This document shows, piece by piece, positions 3,899 through 54,531 of a stretch of DNA of 64,000 bases. The position numbers were made by a program, and so were the translations under genes. This DNA is from Haloglomus litoreum (GTDB lineage: Archaea > Halobacteriota > Halobacteria > Halobacteriales > Haloarculaceae). The stretch lies in assembly GCF_029338515.1 (NCBI RefSeq), contig NZ_CP119988.1:3410001-3474000 (forward strand), written 5' to 3'. Positions within the stretch are counted from its first letter, which is position 1. Every line of letters starts with the position of its first letter. The notes under the pieces were generated by a model, which worked only from the letters and a program-made list of their open reading frames with translations, did not search any database and had not been told where the DNA came from.

Positions 3899-4028
3899 GG
3901 TAAGGGAATCTCCAGGGGCTACAAAACCGTACACCACCGGGGTTGTGACCGACTCGCGCACTGTATTCAGCACGGATGCTCAGAACGGTCACCGACAGAG
4001 GGCTTCAACGGAGCCTCGTTTCTGCATA

Positions 4029-4166
4029 CCGCGCGAGCGTAGCGAGCGCGGTTTCACCGCCACGAGGGCGCGCAGCGCCCGAGTGGCGGCCTTTTTTCTG
4101 AACGTTTTTTGCCGCGAGTGGTTCCGCGCCGCAGGCACGGAACCCGAGCGGGAAAAAAGCTCGATT
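4029..4166. repeat. Three-stem convergent-gene element, copy 1 (putative bidirectional terminator or structured RNA)
   Basis: A structured intergenic element ending at the stop codon of the minus-strand oxidoreductase gene. Plus-strand order: a CCGCGC..GCGCGG block with GAGCGTAGCGA inside (4029-4051); a long stem CCGCCAC-ga-GGGCGC / GCGCCC-ga-GTGGCGG with a GCA loop (4058-4089); a conserved linker containing CTGAACGTTTTTTGC (about 4098-4112); a third stem CCGC..GGTTCCG / CGGAACC..GCGG (4112-4152); and the tail GGAAAAAAGCTC. A second copy at 20204-20354 keeps the linker and the fold but changes the stem sequences. T-tracts follow stems in both directions, so a bidirectional terminator is the simplest reading. 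Confidence 0.65.
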
Positions 4167-6110
4167 TCAGTCGTCGCCAGGCGCGGCCGCACCGCTGCCC
4201 GCGGAGACGCCCGTGCCGGGGCCGATGTCGATATCCAGCTCGTCCAGCTTCTCGTCGGGGACGACGCCGTCGACCCAGCCGCGGTGCTCGTAGTACTCCT
4301 CCTTCATCTGCTCGAGTTCACAGACCTCGCCCTCGGAGGCGCCCTGTCCAGGGATGGAACCGGGGTTGTCCGGCAGGAATCGGTCCGGCAGCGAGTCGTC
4401 CTCGCCGTCGAAGCCGTTGAGGTTGTTGTAGTAGCGCTCGAGGTTGTAGACGCGCTCGCCGGCCTGCATGATCTCCTCCTCACCGACGTCGAGGCCGGTC
4501 ATCCCGTTGTACTGGAGGACGTACTCCTCGACGCCCTCCGCGAACGCGTTGAACTTGCAGATGTCGAACGAGTCCGAGATGGCGTGCATATCCTGGAAGG
4601 TCGCCGCCAGCTCGCCCTTGCCCCGCCACTCGTAGGGGTCGACCTTCTCGGGGATGCCGAGGATCTCCGCCGACGGGGTGTAGGCCCGCAGGTGGCACGC
4701 GCCGCGGTTCGAGGTGGCGTAGCCGATGCCCATCCCCTTCATGCAGCGCGGGTCGTAGGCGGCCATCGACTGGCCCTTGACGGCCAGCGAGTTGCCGTGG
4801 GCGTCGAACTCCTCGGCGAGGTGGTTCGGCCCCTCGGCGAGGTGGTCCGCGAGGTCGGTCTCGCGGGTCGCGACCTTCGTCAGCATCTCGACCATCTCCT
4901 CGGTGTCGCCCCAGTCGATGCCGTCGCCGAGGCCGTCGAGCTTGCCCTCCTCGGTCATCTCCATGGCCATCGCCATCGTGTTGCCCGCGTCGATGGTGTC
5001 GAGGCCGTGGTCGTTGCAGCGCTGGAGCATGAGCGCGATCTCGTCGCGCTCGGTGTGTCCGGAGTTCGGGCCCAGCGCCCACGCCGACTCGTACTCGTAG
5101 GACTCGGTGCGGACGTTCAGCTCCTCGCCCTTGTGCATCACGTCGACCTCGACCTCCTTCTTGCAGGCGACCGGGCAGGAGTGACAGGTCGGCTCGTCGA
5201 CGAGGATGTTCTCGCGGACGTTCTCGCCGGAGACGCGTTCGGAGTCGTAGTCGTCGCCGCCGAACCCGTCGTCGCGAGCGTCACTCGTGGACGTGTACTT
5301 CGCGTTGCGTGCCGGGAGCCCGGACATCTCCTCGGTCGCGTTCATCAGGACGTTCGTCCCGTACAGCGAGAGGCCGCCCTCGTTCGGGCCCGTCACCTCG
5401 GACTCCTGGATGAGCTGCATCGCCTGCTGGTGGCCCTTCTTGAACGTCTCCGGGTCCGCCGGCTTCGGCATCTTCGTCGTCGACTTCACGACCACCGCTT
5501 TGAGGTTCTTGTTGCCCATCACGCAGCCGGTCCCGCCCCGGCCCGAGGCGCGGTCGTCCTCGTTCATGATGCAGGCGTATTTCACCTCGTTCTCCCCGCC
5601 CTCCCCGATGGCCATCGTCGAGAGGTTCTTGCCGTAGGCACCCTCGTGGCGCTCCTCCAGGGCCTCCATCGTGTCGTGGACGCCCTTCCCCCAGAGGTCG
5701 GAGGCATCGTGGAGGCTGACCTCGCCATCCTCGACGAAGGCGTACACCGGCTCGTCGGCGCGGCCCTCGAAGAGGAGGCCGTCGAAGCCCGCCCACTTGA
5801 GTCGCGCCCCGGACCAGCCGCCGTGGTGGCTATCCGTGACGGTGCCCGTCAGCGGGGACTTCGTGCAGATGGCGATGCGCCCGGACATCGTCACCTGCGT
5901 TCCCGTGAGCGGACCGTTCATGAACGCGAGGAGGTTGTCCTCGCCCAGCGGGTCCACGTCGGGCCCCTGGTCGAAGACGTACTTCACACCGAGGCCGCGC
6001 GCGCCGATGTACTTCTTCGCGTCCTCGTCGTCGACGCTCTCATACTGTACGTCCCCACTCGTGAGGTCCACGCGGGCGACGTGGTCCTGGAATCCGCCGA
6101 GATCTGTCAT
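4167..6110 (-). CDS. aor: Aldehyde:ferredoxin oxidoreductase family protein (tungstopterin enzyme)
   Basis: Predicted to oxidise an aldehyde to a carboxylate using a tungsten bis-pterin cofactor, one 4Fe-4S cluster and ferredoxin as acceptor. It has 647 residues, a little over the usual ~600-620. The start MTDLGGFQDHVARVDLTSGD is the typical AOR beginning. The cluster ligands are visible as C-x2-C-x3-C in EPTCHSCPVACKKEV (around residue 308), with the distal cysteine in DSFDICKFNAF. Cofactor-loop sequences such as SGARLKWAGFDGLLFEGRA and RASGRGGTGCVMGNKNLKAV are present. The acidic C-terminal end (about 30 residues, ending GSGAAAPGDD) looks like a halophilic extension. Substrate cannot be read from sequence. 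It stands alone; two ferredoxin genes elsewhere in the window could serve as partners. Confidence 0.92.
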   Translation of the reverse strand: MTDLGGFQDHVARVDLTSGDVQYESVDDEDAKKYIGARGLGVKYVFDQGPDVDPLGEDNLLAFMNGPLTGTQVTMSGRIAICTKSPLTGTVTDSHHGGWSGARLKWAGFDGLLFEGRADEPVYAFVEDGEVSLHDASDLWGKGVHDTMEALEERHEGAYGKNLSTMAIGEGGENEVKYACIMNEDDRASGRGGTGCVMGNKNLKAVVVKSTTKMPKPADPETFKKGHQQAMQLIQESEVTGPNEGGLSLYGTNVLMNATEEMSGLPARNAKYTSTSDARDDGFGGDDYDSERVSGENVRENILVDEPTCHSCPVACKKEVEVDVMHKGEELNVRTESYEYESAWALGPNSGHTERDEIALMLQRCNDHGLDTIDAGNTMAMAMEMTEEGKLDGLGDGIDWGDTEEMVEMLTKVATRETDLADHLAEGPNHLAEEFDAHGNSLAVKGQSMAAYDPRCMKGMGIGYATSNRGACHLRAYTPSAEILGIPEKVDPYEWRGKGELAATFQDMHAISDSFDICKFNAFAEGVEEYVLQYNGMTGLDVGEEEIMQAGERVYNLERYYNNLNGFDGEDDSLPDRFLPDNPGSIPGQGASEGEVCELEQMKEEYYEHRGWVDGVVPDEKLDELDIDIGPGTGVSAGSGAAAPGDD

Positions 6111-6185: not shown

Positions 6186-6364
6186 ATCTCCCGAGGGATG
6201 CCCGTCGATTGACGGTCTGTATATGTGCGGGTCGGTATCTACCCGACACGACCACATCCGCCGTGACGGCCGAAACCGGAACCCGTCACAGTGTGGAACG
6301 CTGACACAGGTGATGTGCCGGCCCTCGGGCCCGGCAGGCCCGGACCGTCACGGTCTTGCCGCGC

Positions 6365-7974: not shown

Positions 7975-8034
7975 CATCCGCGCAAGGTCCCGGACACGCG
8001 CTCCCCGCCGGATAGCGGCTGGTCGGCCGACCGG

Positions 8035-8290
8035 TTCCGGGACCAGGAAGCGCGCTCGCGCCCCCGCTGTGGAGACGGCGAGCGAAGCGAGCGTGTCGGA
8101 ACACCACGGCGCGAGCGCGGGGAGGTGTGGGGCCACTAGCGCTCCGCTGGAACCACCACGCGCAGATGCTCTTGGATGCATCCTGGCGGAATCGAAGGGC
8201 GAGCGCGTGAGGGCTTCGTAGGCAGTCCGGCCGCCGCTGTCGCTGTCTCGAGGAAGCGCGAGGGCTTCGTCGCAGTCCCTCTGGTCGCCG
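8035..8290 (+). repeat. GAGGGCTTCG element, copy A (one-armed)
   Basis: This fills most of the 448-bp gene-free stretch 7975-8422 between convergent genes. It contains, in order, blocks shared with the elements at 43023-43582 and 53822-54428: ACCAGGAAGCGCGCTCGCG, CGCGGGGAGGTGTGGGGCC (about 8116-8134), AGCGCTCCGCTGGAACCACC, TGGCGGAATCGAAGGGCGAG, and two copies of GCGyGAGGGCTTCGT (8206-8220 and 8257-8271). The opposite inverted arm found in the other copies is missing. Bases 8291-8422 are more AT-rich and hold nothing I recognise. Confidence 0.6.
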
Positions 8291-20203: not shown

Positions 20204-20354
20204 CCGCGCGAGCGAAGCGAGCGCGGTTCTCCGCTCGGAGACCCCGAAGGGGTTGGAGAGCGGCCTTTTTCTGAACGTTTTTTGCGGAAGTGGTTCGCGA
20301 AGAGCGCCGGCCGTAGGCCGGCGCACGAGCGAACCCGCAGCGGAAAACAGCTCC
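20204..20354. repeat. Three-stem convergent-gene element, copy 2
   Basis: This has the same architecture as 4029-4166 and again abuts the 3' end of a minus-strand gene facing a plus-strand gene (ligA). The first block, CCGCGC..GCGCGG with GAGCGAAGCGA inside (20204-20226), differs by one base. Stem 2 is CCGCTC / GAGCGG with an inner ACCCC-GAA-GGGGT hairpin, so it is different in sequence but paired. The linker containing CTGAACGTTTTTTGC is identical. Stem 3 has GCGG / CCGC outside, GGTTCG / CGAACC next and a 9-bp GCGCCGGCC-gta-GGCCGGCGC inside, followed by GGAAAACAGCTC. Every stem changed on both sides. Confidence 0.65.
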
Positions 20355-20642
20355 TTAGAAGGAAACCTGCTCGTGGCCGGTCTCGCCCAGACCGGGGGCG
20401 TCGCGGTCGGAGTAGCCGACGCGGCCGACGGCCTCCTCGGAGAGCGCCGAGTAAGCGGTGAGTCGGACCTCCTCGGCGTCGGCGAACGTCTGCTCGCCCA
20501 GCAGCTCGATGAGCTCGCCGAAGGTCTCGGTCCCGTCGACCGTCTCCAGCTCCAGCTCTCCGTAGGCCTCCACCAGCTCCTCGGCTGTTGCAGGGTAGGA
20601 GTGCGCGTCGATCTTCTCGTCCACGTCGTCCATGATGCGCAT
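20355..20642 (-). CDS. DUF5789 family small haloarchaeal protein
   Basis: A 95-residue protein of unknown function, highly acidic in the middle. It contains the family stretches SYPATAEELVEAYGELELET and FADAEEVRLTAYSALSEEAV, followed by GRVGYSDRDAPGLGE. The start at 20642 is fixed by a strong Shine-Dalgarno sequence GGAGGT five to six bases before the ATG, which is unusual here since many genes in the window look leaderless. An in-frame ATG 30 nt upstream is less likely. The stop abuts the three-stem element. Confidence 0.8.
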   Translation of the reverse strand: MRIMDDVDEKIDAHSYPATAEELVEAYGELELETVDGTETFGELIELLGEQTFADAEEVRLTAYSALSEEAVGRVGYSDRDAPGLGETGHEQVSF

Positions 20643-29838: not shown

Positions 29839-31815
29839 CTACGGAACGAACACGTACGCCGAACCGCTGTTGAACCCGTTGGGGTCCCCATCGAGGTAGG
29901 CACCGAAGACGGCCGTGTCGCCGCTCAACGCGACCGAGTGCCCGAACTGGTCATTGAAATCGCCGTCGCTGGCGACGAGTTTGGCCTGCTCGGTCCACGT
30001 GCTTCCCGACCGCGTGAACACGTACGCAGAACCGCTGAAGGTCCCGTTCGGGTCCTCGTCGGTCTTCGCGCTGACGACAGCCGTCTCCCCGTCCAGCGCG
30101 ACCGCGTAGCCGAACTGGTCGCTACCGTCACCGTCGCTGGCGGCGAGTTTGGCCTCCTCGCTCCAGGTCGTTCCCGAGCGCGTGAAGACGTACGCCGAGC
30201 CAGCACTGCCACCGTTGGGGTCCTCGTCGTTGAGTGCGCCGACCAGGACCGTGTCACCCGCCACCGCGACCGACCGGCCGAAGTAGTCGTACGTGTCCCC
30301 GTCGCTGGCGAACAGCTTCACCTGCTGGGTCCAGGTCGTCCCCGACCGGACGAACACGTACGCCGAGCCGGATCCGGGTCCGTTGGGGTCCCCGTCGTTC
30401 GAGGTGCCGACGACGGCCGTGTCACCGTCGACCGCGACCGCGAAGCCGAACCGGTCGTTGGTCTCGCCGTCGGTGGGGAGCAGTTTCGCCTGCTGGCTCC
30501 ACGTCGTCCCCGACCGGACGAACACGTACGCCGAGCCGGCGCCACCACCGTTGGGGTCCTCGTCGAGGTACGCACCGACGACGGCGGTGTCACCGTCGAG
30601 AGCGACAGTGTACCCGAACCGGTCGCTATCGTCACCGTCGGTGGGGAGCAGTTTCGCCTGCTGGCTCCACGTCGTCCCCGACCGCGTGAACACGTACGCC
30701 GAACCGCTGTTGCTCCCGTTGGGGTCCTCGTCCTGGTACGCGCCGACGAGGGCCGTATCGCCGCTCAGCGCGACCGACCAGCCGAAGCGATCCTGTGCGT
30801 CACCGTCGGTGGGGAGCAGTTTCGCCTGCTGGCTCCACGTGCTTCCCGACCGCGTGAACACGTACGCCGAACCGGCACCGCTGCCGTTCGGGTCCTCGTC
30901 GCCCCAGGCGCCGGCGAGCGCCGTGTCACCGTCCACCGCGACCGCGTGGCCGAAGCCGTCGTCGCTGTCGCCGTCGCTGGCGAACAGCTTCGCCTGCTGG
31001 ATGGTCGGGAACAGCTGGGGCGCCGGCCCGGAGCCGCCGCCGCTCGTACCCCACGGGTTGTCCGTTCCGTCGGTGTTGCGGGCCTGGATGGCCCCGAACT
31101 CGACGTCGAACGCCACGCTGTCGGACTGGACCTCGTTGCCGACCGCGAGCGGCAGTTCCCACTCGATGCAGAGGCACGGCCCCGTCGTCTCGCCGGGCGC
31201 GCTGCTCGGCTGATAGGCGGCCTGTGAGCCCGCGGGGGCGTCGCTCCCGGCGGCGTTCAGCGGCGTGCCGCCCGCGAGCAGGGCCAGCAGCGACGCCAGC
31301 GAGACGTCGGTGGCAATCTCGCCGCCCGGGACGGGGTCGCCGTTCGCGTCGCAGTAGAACGCGCTCGCGACGATGGCGTCGTCGAGTTCGCCCAGGCCGT
31401 CGGTATCGACGCCCTCGGCGTCGATCTCGGGGTCGTTCTGCCCGTTCTCGGCGTCCTCGGTGCCCGTCGTCCGGACCCAGAGGTAGGCGGGATTCGTGTG
31501 CAGCTCGAAGCAGAACGTCACGGCGCCGCTGTCGCCGGGTTTCACGTCCTCGAGCGTGTAGAACAGGCCCGCCTCACCGTCGACAACACCTGACGGAGTC
31601 GCGAGGTTGGTCGCGGGCGAACCCTGGTAGGTGGCGTCGTAGTGGACCAGCAGGTCCAGCGTGCCCGCGACGAGGCTGTTGCCGTCGAAGGACTCGCGGT
31701 CGCTGAACAGGGCGCTGGTGCCGAGGCCGGCGCCCGCCGAGGCGAGGCCGATGGCGCCGGCGCCGACCAGTATCCGGCGCCGAGTGAGGTCGACGAGTAC
31801 CTGATCGCCGCTCAT
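29839..31815 (-). CDS. Exported FG-GAP beta-propeller protein with SipW-type signal
   Basis: A 658-residue secreted or surface protein. Residues 9-50 (LTRRRILVGAGAIGLASAGA, then GTSALFSDRESFDGNSLVAG) match the haloarchaeal SipW-dependent signal type with its F-S-D-x-E..N-x-x-x-A-G-x-L mark. The next ~220 residues form the SipW-cognate domain (PGDSGAVTFCFELHTNPAYL). Residues ~273-658 are seven tandem FG-GAP-like repeats of 56 residues, each reading about AKLxxxDGDxxDxFG, GDTAVVGAYxDEDPNG and GSAYVFxRSGTTW. Seven repeats would close one seven-bladed propeller. D-x-D-x-D-G-like loops could bind calcium. The target outside the cell is unknown; adhesion is a guess. Confidence 0.85.
   Translation of the reverse strand: MSGDQVLVDLTRRRILVGAGAIGLASAGAGLGTSALFSDRESFDGNSLVAGTLDLLVHYDATYQGSPATNLATPSGVVDGEAGLFYTLEDVKPGDSGAVTFCFELHTNPAYLWVRTTGTEDAENGQNDPEIDAEGVDTDGLGELDDAIVASAFYCDANGDPVPGGEIATDVSLASLLALLAGGTPLNAAGSDAPAGSQAAYQPSSAPGETTGPCLCIEWELPLAVGNEVQSDSVAFDVEFGAIQARNTDGTDNPWGTSGGGSGPAPQLFPTIQQAKLFASDGDSDDGFGHAVAVDGDTALAGAWGDEDPNGSGAGSAYVFTRSGSTWSQQAKLLPTDGDAQDRFGWSVALSGDTALVGAYQDEDPNGSNSGSAYVFTRSGTTWSQQAKLLPTDGDDSDRFGYTVALDGDTAVVGAYLDEDPNGGGAGSAYVFVRSGTTWSQQAKLLPTDGETNDRFGFAVAVDGDTAVVGTSNDGDPNGPGSGSAYVFVRSGTTWTQQVKLFASDGDTYDYFGRSVAVAGDTVLVGALNDEDPNGGSAGSAYVFTRSGTTWSEEAKLAASDGDGSDQFGYAVALDGETAVVSAKTDEDPNGTFSGSAYVFTRSGSTWTEQAKLVASDGDFNDQFGHSVALSGDTAVFGAYLDGDPNGFNSGSAYVFVP
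29842..30999 (-). repeat. Seven tandem 168-bp coding repeats (FG-GAP blades)
   Basis: Seven in-frame units, the last shortened to about 50 codons, with period 168 bp. Conserved DNA words recur in each, for example the code for GSAYVF and DEDPNG. Units 2-4 are the most alike (all with AKLLPTDG), which points to recent internal duplication or gene conversion. Confidence 0.85.
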
Positions 31816-42652: not shown

Positions 42653-43022
42653 ATCCGTGATTCTCGTACCGGGGCCGAAAACGTGTCGTTACCGTGTGAA
42701 CGGTTCCGCGGGCGTGAAAATCGGCTTTGAACCCACTACTCCGCACCCAACTCCGATATTACGACCATTCATCTCGAAATCAGTCCATATCTCGATAATC
42801 CACACGTCGCGCACTCCCCGAGATTCAAATGCGATACCGGGGCCAGACACCCCGTGACCTGACGCATCGAGCGGGTCGGGCCATCCGGGCGCGGTTATCG
42901 TACCGCGTGACGGTTCGGCCAGCGCGACACGACCGACCCGTCGCCGGTGGGAGTTCGTGGGCTCCCGCAGTGTCGCCTGTTCGCTAGGCTGAGATGTCAG
43001 TCGCGATGCTGGGAACAGGGCA
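42653..43022. other. Gene-free stretch upstream of aspS
   Basis: No convincing gene. The first ~200 bases are less GC-rich and probably hold the aspS promoter; the rest leads into the inverted-repeat element. I see no tRNA or other RNA gene here. Confidence 0.4.
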
Positions 43023-43582
43023 GCCTCCGAAGCCCTCGCCCTTCGAATCCGCCAGGAGACGCTTGTTCGACCGAGCGTTCGGACGTGAGGGTTCCACCGG
43101 AGCGCTAGTGGCCCCACACCTCCCCGCGCGAGCGCTGTGGCGGCTCCGCACGGCGCTGACGCGCCGGCTCCGCCAGCGGTGGCGCTCGCGCGCTTCCTGT
43201 TCTCGGAACCAGCCGGCCGGCCAGCCGCTCGGCTGGTGCGTGCTCCCCCGTCAGTCCAGTGGGCGCGCGCTGGCGGCTGTGCCGCAGGCCAGCCGTCGCC
43301 AGCGCGCGAGGGCCGAGCACCAGAGCGACCGGAGGGAGCGAGGAGCGCAGGCGGATGGGGAGGTGTGAGGCCTACGACCCGACTGACGAATCCACGGCCT
43401 GGCGGACTCGAAGGGCGAGCGCTCTCGACCCTGCCCGGAGGAAGCAAGCACCGCAGGGAGCGAGCATCGCGAGCGACCGAGGAGCGCAGCGACTCCCGGC
43501 AGGTCGAGAGCGCGAGGGCTTCGGGAGCAGTCCCACCTCCGGAGTCGATGCCGTCCCGAGAGAGCGCGAGGGCTTCGGAGGC
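43023..43582. mobile_element. GAGGGCTTCG element, copy B (560 bp, MITE-like)
   Basis: It is bounded by 17-bp perfect terminal inverted repeats, GCCTCCGAAGCCCTCGC (43023-43039) and GCGAGGGCTTCGGAGGC (43566-43582). The left arm, read on the minus strand, carries GGCGGATTCGAAGGGCGAG, GGTGGAACC and GCGCGGGGAGGTGTGGGGCC. The right arm, on the plus strand, carries GGGGAGGTGTG, TGGCGGACTCGAAGGGCGAG, GCACCGCAGGGAGCGAG and a second GAGCGCGAGGGCTTCGG. The same blocks occur in the same order at 8035-8290 and 53822-54428. No transposase is encoded; open frames here are arginine- and serine-rich shadows. I see no clear target duplication. Confidence 0.65.
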
Positions 43583-43666
43583 AGGCCACCTGTCGTCAGC
43601 GACACCAGACACCACTGCGCCTAGCCCTTCCGACACGGTTTAGTCGCGCGGTAGCCACGCCCGCGT

Positions 43667-53701: not shown

Positions 53702-53821
53702 GTGTGGTTCGTGGGGTGGCTGGTGGGCGTATAGTTCTGGCTCTCGCGTGCAGGACGGCGAGGTAATCGGGTCGATGAGACTGCGATTCGTGGAGGATAT
53801 AATGACGACGACGGGAACGCC

Positions 53822-54428
53822 CACGAAGCCCTCGCGCGCTCAACCGGCCGCGGCTCGCTGCGCTCCTCGCTCCGGTCGCGTTGCTCCCTCCGCTGCGGTG
53901 CTTGCGTCACCGGGGCCGGATTGAGCCCGCTCGCCCTTCGAGTCCGCCAGGATTCGGCTGTTCCCCGGCCGCTGTGGCCCTGCCCTTCCCCAGGTCGCGC
54001 GGGCTCGCTTGCGCTCGCGGCTTCGCCGCTCGCTCGGGGCGCGGAACGCCCCGCTGCTCGCCACGCGCTCCCGGCCGGGGAGCGGTTGGTCGGTCGGTTC
54101 CGAGAAAAGGAAGCGCGCGAGCGCGCTCCGGCCGAGTCACCCGAGCGGAGCGAGGGGTGGCGAGGCAACACGCCGCGCTCGCGCGGGGAGGTGTGGGGAT
54201 ACGAGCACTTCGCTGGAACCAGCACGCCCGAACGCTCGACCGAGACGGTACGCCCTGGCGGACTCGAAGGGCGAGCGCTCTCGAACCCTCCCGGACGACG
54301 GTGAGCGCCGAAGGCGCGAACGACGGAAGACGAGCAACGCGAGTCTTCCGGAACAAGCACCGCAGCCGAGCGGAGCGAGGCAAGGAGCGCAGCGAGTCCC
54401 GGAGTGGTCGAGAGCGCGAGGGCTTCGT
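53822..54428. mobile_element. GAGGGCTTCG element, copy C (607 bp, MITE-like)
   Basis: It fills most of the 830-bp gene-free gap 53702-54531. 15-bp terminal inverted repeats bound it: ACGAAGCCCTCGCGC (53822-53836) and GCGCGAGGGCTTCGT (54414-54428). The left arm on the minus strand has TGGCGGACTCGAAGGGCGAG and GAGCGAGGAGCGCAGCGAGC. The right arm on the plus strand has GGTTCCGAGAAAAGGAAGCG, GCGCGGGGAGGTGTGGGG, CGCTGGAACCAGCACGC, TGGCGGACTCGAAGGGCGAG and GAGTGGTCGAGAGCGCGAG. No protein is encoded; an open frame here fused to serS is basic and without similarity. 54429-54531 holds the serS promoter. Confidence 0.65.
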
Positions 54429-54531
54429 AGCTGTTCCTTCAGGCATCACCGACAGTATAGACACCGTATGCCACCCAGTCCCGCGACACCGACACGACTT
54501 TTCCGACCACCCGAGAACCCCACATCAACAG

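Follow-up and report, generated by a model that had tools for sequence, protein, structure and literature searches.

Hairpin and T-tract elements set against stop codons form a previously undescribed family in Halobacteriales

What is the structured sequence that occurs twice, each time directly against a stop codon, in a 64,000-nt stretch (hereafter the window) of the 4.70-Mb Haloglomus genome? The original prediction, made from the letters alone, described a three-stem intergenic element in two copies and offered a bidirectional terminator or a structured 3' UTR RNA as possible functions. Both copies (4029-4166 and 20204-20354) were found where it had placed them, carrying the shared blocks that it had listed, and both lie at convergent junctions, ending 1-4 nt from the minus-strand stop codons at 4167 and 20355. 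In this study, we found that these copies are two members of a previously undescribed family of hairpin and T-tract elements at stop codons, whose parts are given in Table 1. Rfam 15 yielded no match in the window, and a search of eight element loci with E up to 1 brought up a tRNA and, besides it, just two chance matches below threshold; full-text literature searches, whose coverage leaves out most subscription papers, returned no description of the element. The gene whose stop codon adjoins copy 1 (hereafter, for any copy, the stop-flush gene) encodes a product of 647 aa by codon scoring, or of 696 aa if read from an upstream ATG at 6257, and the product of the stop-flush gene of copy 2 is without an NCBIfam match.

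Table 1. Parts of the two element copies and their stop-flush genes (positions are those of the window)
Feature	Position	Strand	Basis or remark
Copy 1, left-end motif GCATAC	4024..4029	+	sequence
Copy 1, hairpin h1, CCGCGC-GA-GC-GTA-GC-GA-GCGCGG	4029..4051	+	sequence
Copy 1, hairpin h2, tandem GA/GA internal loop	4057..4089	+	sequence; model helices 1 and 2
Copy 1, T-tract 1, T6 then C	4092..4097	+	sequence
Copy 1, linker CTGAACG, Haloglomus type	4098..4104	+	
Copy 1, T-tract 2, pairing partner of the A-tract	4105..4110	+	model helix 3
Copy 1, hairpin h3: stem a, GA/GA loop, bulged base, stem b	4112..4151	+	folding; model helices 4-6
Copy 1, right end A6-GCTC	4153..4162	+	minus strand: GAGC-TTTTTT directly after the stop codon
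Copy 1, stop-flush gene, aldehyde ferredoxin oxidoreductase-like protein	4167..6110	-	gap to element 4 nt
Copy 2, hairpin h1	20204..20226	+	sequence
Copy 2, hairpin h2	20231..20263	+	sequence; model match 20226-20353
Copy 2, T5 - CTGAACG - T6	20266..20283	+	sequence
Copy 2, hairpin h3, AAG/GCA subclass	20284..20343	+	folding
Copy 2, A-rich tract and GCTC right end	20344..20353	+	sequence
Copy 2, stop-flush gene, 95-105 aa protein	20355..20642	-	gap to element 1 nt

The 15-nt core CTGAACGTTTTTTGC occurs twice in the window against 0.25 expected (up to three mismatches), and in the whole genome it has 17 exact matches and 30 with up to two mismatches, whereas the reversed control has none; two of the 30 (L026 and L028) are not elements. 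The core is present in all four Haloglomus genomes examined, and in 142 other genomes of the same taxonomic family its exact form is at background, with 0-1 matches per genome. As a family marker the exact core is therefore useless beyond Haloglomus, where the family is visible only through structure. A covariance model of 25 pairs, R1, was built from 18 aligned Haloglomus copies only. In the window it matches 4052-4162 (E 1e-25) and 20226-20353 (E 1e-23), and besides these two known copies no further match was found at E up to 1 in 96 kb. R1 has 44 matches in this genome and 50, 42 and 30 in the other three Haloglomus genomes, and across Halobacteriales it matches 193 of 243 genomes and 62 of 78 genera, with E to about 1e-16 over the full length; since this order-wide search scored 14 candidates per genome, the copy numbers are lower bounds. 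The covariance search of haloarchaeal genomes that had been proposed along with the two copies thus reveals a family much larger than that pair. A phylum-wide sample of 148 genomes gave matches in 17, all 17 within Halobacteriales, albeit as an imperfectly matched control in which most non-members offer fewer G+C-rich candidates. Better matched are the window itself and three named haloarchaeal plasmids, pNRC200, pNG700 and pHTUR01 (1.47 Mb together), the plasmids being without a model match. Among the named carriers, Haloglomus halophilum ZY41 has 45-50 copies, and Halovenus salina and species of Natrinema and Natronobeatus have the element on plasmids. On Natrinema versiforme plasmid pNVE500 (L344:1971-3146), two copies in the same orientation flank an 825-nt gene for a hypothetical protein, and the pair resembles a small duplicated or composite unit.

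Read on the reported strand, the element consists of GCATAC, h1, TTTCA, h2, T5-6, a linker of 7-8 nt, a second T5-6, GC, h3, A5-6 and a right end that is a short complement of the linker, followed by the stop codon of the opposing gene. The left motif, GCATAC or GCATCC, is commonest in Haloglomus (40 of 57 parseable copies), and a looser GCRTHC motif lies at most 60 nt upstream in 44 of 88 copies from other genera. Hairpin h1 is found in most copies, with differing stem sequences, and the second T-tract pairs with the A-tract. In hairpin h3, two variable stems, the first of them short, are separated by a tandem GA/GA mismatch, a G-C pair and a single bulged base. The plus-strand GA/GA loop of h3 is present in 81 of the 88 copies from other genera, where the other strand would show TC/TC instead. 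Because purine-rich loops are conserved on the plus strand alone, it is this strand that the sequences suggest to be recognised when folded, either as RNA or as single-stranded DNA. The h3 loop was also considered as a K-turn and rejected, for although the tandem GA is present, the bulge is too short and on the wrong side. With 22 of its 23 genomic matches inside elements, the right end, GAGCTTTTTT, is rejected as a native terminator of general use. A subset of copies contains extra hairpin modules: a module pair (CGTCATCAGAACGC..GCGTTCTGATTGCCCGTGGAATCGC..GCGATTCCACGAC) lies between T-tract 2 and h3 in at least 12 copies, including L019, L021, L022, L023, L029, L104, L108, L121 and L125, and other nested modules sit inside h2 and h3.

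The idea that selection acts on the fold arose from differences between copies 1 and 2 in stems 2 and 3, which do preserve pairing as claimed; the further swap of an outer CCGC/GCGG for GCGG/CCGC is doubtful, because copy 2 belongs to a subclass in which the base of h3 folds differently. Selection on the fold is strongly supported by the family as a whole. Among 86 distinct sequences from other genera, in an alignment that was itself fitted to R1, so that an independent test matters, 96.5% of cells are paired and both partners change in 19 of the 25 pairs. Covariation scores 0.358 in this alignment, as compared to 0.082 (sd 0.006) for shuffled sequences and at most 0.055 with partners slid, and none of 500 shuffles reached the observed value. 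Over the order sample, R1 helices 1 and 2, which form h2, are paired at 97.8% and 99.4%, and helix 3, the T/A tract, at 96.5%. Furthermore, the linker and the right end, which are unpaired in R1, are complementary by genus (TCGAC/GTCG, CGTA/TACG, CCCA/TGGG, TGAAC/GTTC and others). Over 35 types, 2.63 of 4 positions of this linker/right-end helix are paired, as compared to 2.06 (sd 0.14) with shuffled right ends, and none of 1000 shuffles was as high. The linker type is constant within Haloglomus and different between genera, and the Haloglomus type fits the helix less well.

In 75 of 82 Haloglomus copies, GAGC and the T-tract lie -2 to +5 nt from the stop codon of the right gene, a count that allows two mismatches in GAGCTTTTT; the run of at least about five T just downstream of a gene that marks archaeal T-tract terminators is represented in these copies by T5-6 a few nt from the stop. 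Among 84 Haloglomus core matches, with genes called by codon usage as learned from the window and not taken from curated annotation, 48 have a left neighbour that faces the element and 31 have one that points away. Further copies at convergent junctions, as anticipated from the first two, do therefore exist (about 60%), but the 31 copies between tandem genes indicate that the anchor is the stop codon of one gene and not the convergent junction. Among 88 sampled copies from other genera, 48 are stop-flush, another 27 come after a plus-strand gene and 13 fit neither description, and the plasmid copies in Natrinema and Halovenus are not stop-flush. One copy (L300) adjoins the 3' end of a tRNA-Leu gene. 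At loci L268 and L313, model matches are close to tRNA-Arg genes and are themselves adjoined by sequence resembling a tRNA 3' end, and these sites are possibly attachment sites of integrated elements.

The genes against which the element lies recur. At sites shared between Haloglomus genomes the right genes are orthologous and the left genes often differ, and of 48 stop-flush genes sampled in other genera, 21 are homologous to Haloglomus element genes, whereas the left-neighbour control gives 4-5 of 48. Among the shared or flush genes are those for aCPSF1, EF-2, proteasome-activating nucleotidase (PAN), CDC48, PhoU and L15e, as well as EngB, glutamine synthetase, transcription factor S and FtsZ. 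Copies are nevertheless gained, lost and remodelled between species. In two collinear Haloglomus species, the hairpins of the elements at many orthologous sites differ widely in sequence, and at several sites one of the two species has no element. Where filled and empty sites are compared, homology ends at the stop codon and the remaining intergenic region differs too, so that a target-site duplication, which together with terminal inverted repeats would mark a MITE, is not readable. For example, a junction of about 41 bp in genome G002 corresponds to about 540 bp in G001 (L107:1890-2480), where two facing elements, one per stop codon, occupy a convergent junction. At L092, a TGA within the element closes the reading frame before it reaches the stop codon that the relative with the empty site uses. 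This turnover, together with the recurrence, suggests a useful element that spreads to, or is regained at, preferred genes.

The best reading of these features, and one that we consider somewhat probable, is that the element acts as a portable bidirectional transcription terminator/insulator fixed to the stop codon of one gene. T-tracts of five or more are scarce in the window, with nine over both strands, and five of the nine lie within the two elements. Termination between genes in Haloferax volcanii takes place at T-stretches that end at C, and 95% of transcripts were halted in vivo by an inserted T5C (PMC7237163). The scarcity of T-tracts, taken with T-stretch termination in H. volcanii, argues for the terminator/insulator reading. 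In its favour are also the anchoring at stop codons, the covariation, and the recurrence at homologous genes, which points to functional constraint. Haloglomus T-tract 1 is T6 followed by C and resembles the T5C terminator in being a short T-tract after genes. The H. volcanii motif consists of a T-stretch with TC alone, and a three-hairpin element, a fixed distance from the stop and a covarying linker do not figure in the passages drawn on here (PMC7237163). RNA polymerase leaving the stop-flush gene would reach T5-6 about 4-10 nt past the stop, and its release at that point would probably involve aCPSF1/FttA, the archaeal termination factor. In Methanococcus, aCPSF1 and the U-tracts of terminators act together (PMC8716108). 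Release so close to the stop would leave the stop-flush mRNA almost without a 3' UTR. As the median 3' UTR in H. volcanii is given as 97 nt (PMC7237163), a T-tract at most about 10 nt past the stop would make an unusually short one. Transcription on the opposite strand would cross h1 and h2, then T-tract 1 and T-tract 2, with h3 as the last barrier. Termination itself, the factor involved and the nucleic acid that folds are what we infer from this arrangement.

The original prediction had T-tracts following stems in both directions, and this holds for the plus strand only, where h2 is directly followed by T5-6; on the minus strand the T-tract comes ahead of the hairpin, separating the stop codon from stem 3. 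The likeness to bacterial intrinsic terminators, including their bidirectional form, accordingly extends to the plus direction with its GC-rich h2. In the minus direction the T-tract precedes h3, so that h3 is not an intrinsic-terminator hairpin for the stop-flush gene, for which a bare T-tract could be enough. Moreover, bidirectional intrinsic terminators have an A...T layout, whereas h3 is flanked T...A, in reverse, and the element has an extra linker and conserved loops that the bacterial terminators do not. Also counting against a terminator are the 31 tandem Haloglomus copies, at which no gene faces the plus side, the 13 of 88 copies from other genera that have no gene end on either side, and the Natrinema and Halovenus plasmid copies away from stop codons. 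A terminator alone leaves the one-strand purine loops and the co-variation of linker and right end unexplained, as well as the role of h3. More tentatively, it is possible to speculate on a separate haloarchaeal 3'-end system, in which a putative factor would read the structured stop-codon element as folded plus-strand RNA or single-stranded DNA, the variable linker/right-end helix would be a recognition tag specific to each lineage, and one machinery would serve both for termination and for copying the element to new stops.

Alternatively, the element may be a non-autonomous mobile element of the REP or palindrome-associated (IS200/IS605-derived) kind, which we regard as unlikely. The plus strand would fold as single-stranded DNA, a HuH/TnpA-like enzyme would act on h3 and the short complement flanking it, and copies would persist mainly where they are harmless, directly after genes. 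Dispersed, lineage-specific families with different linkers are what such elements would leave, and so are orthologous sites filled in one species and empty in another, as at the G001/G002 junction described above. The hairpins are asymmetric, with purine loops on one strand, and the right end has a guide-like pairing partner in a short stretch 5' of the h3 foot; in IS605 elements, guide and cleavage sequences pair. The Natrinema and Halovenus plasmid copies, not being stop-flush, also keep this alternative alive. However, R1 has no match within about 1.5 kb of any of the six TnpA (Y1) loci of the four Haloglomus genomes (the best score there, 10 bits, is not above noise) or of any of the ten TnpB loci of this genome, and a TnpA- or TnpB-linked mobile element was rejected for Haloglomus on these grounds. 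Viral carriage was rejected as well, since neither the exact core nor the h3 pattern has a match in viral contigs and one query was without a match in phage records. The three plasmids named above have no copies, although mobile elements accumulate on such plasmids; sites stay at the same housekeeping genes across genera, and a transposition target does not explain the tight spacing to the stop. The comparison with known elements of this kind runs the same way. The family is like REP/REPIN sequences with their RAYT transposases in being dispersed intergenic hairpin repeats of lineage-specific sequence and modular hairpins, but no companion TnpA-like gene was found at the six Haloglomus Y1 loci and the element is fixed to the stops of conserved genes. 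Like PATE of Haloquadratum (PMC3119063), it is short, transposase-free, palindromic, haloarchaeal and without terminal inverted repeats. PATE has near-terminal palindromes related to IS605-type elements and a targeting oligonucleotide (PMC3119063), whereas the present element is order-wide, with defined T-tracts, anchoring at stop codons and no IS605 link at the Haloglomus Y1 and TnpB loci.

A structured 3' UTR of the stop-flush mRNA, the other function first proposed, seems improbable. Termination would then fail or lie past the element, and the hairpins would protect the mRNA end or bind a regulator. A long stable hairpin does begin on the sense strand a few nt past the stop, and the H. volcanii median cited above (PMC7237163) is close to the length of the element. 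On that strand, however, the conserved loops turn into pyrimidine mismatches (TC/TC), and T5-6 precedes the structure, such tracts being strong terminators in H. volcanii (PMC7237163). We give still less credence to action as DNA, in which a cruciform or protein-binding site would block polymerase or organise the chromosome at gene borders: the long palindromes, the chromosome-biased distribution and a linker type that is constant in Haloglomus and differs between genera would suit it, but no protein partner is known and the loop asymmetry between strands is unexpected for a plain cruciform. Least credible is a small RNA from the plus strand, antisense to the stop-flush gene at its 3' end, which would act as guide much as in TnpB omega RNA. 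Such an RNA would agree with a plus-strand fold having conserved purine loops and running directly into sequence antisense to the gene, but two strong T-tracts would halt its transcript before h3, and there is no TnpB link at the ten TnpB loci of this genome. In addition, 57 copies have no TATA-like or A+T peak at a fixed distance upstream of h1, and an independent small RNA gene is unlikely given this lack of a positioned TATA box.

In the usual picture of archaeal termination, a U-tract acts with aCPSF1/FttA and structure is at most helpful, and haloarchaea were thought to depend mainly on plain T runs. The present family places an order-wide structured element after the stop codons of housekeeping genes, the gene of the termination factor itself included. 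The element thus provides a defined substrate for asking whether RNA or DNA structure ends haloarchaeal transcription and insulates neighbouring genes, and natural species pairs with filled and empty sites are usable for functional tests. R1 could serve to annotate 3' ends and insulators across the group.

Other repeats were seen beside the element. The left flanks of L004, L009, L013, L014, L023, L088 and L089 have short repeats such as CAACAGNACCGCGMCCGTGACACAGA in common, which form a second dispersed family. Within the window, 8014-8245, 43018-43604 and 53813-54454 share a common dispersed repeat of about 56-69 nt with about 84% identity, in direct and inverted orientation, and 29876-31015 contains at least six head-to-tail repeats of a 168-bp unit with 72-77% identity.
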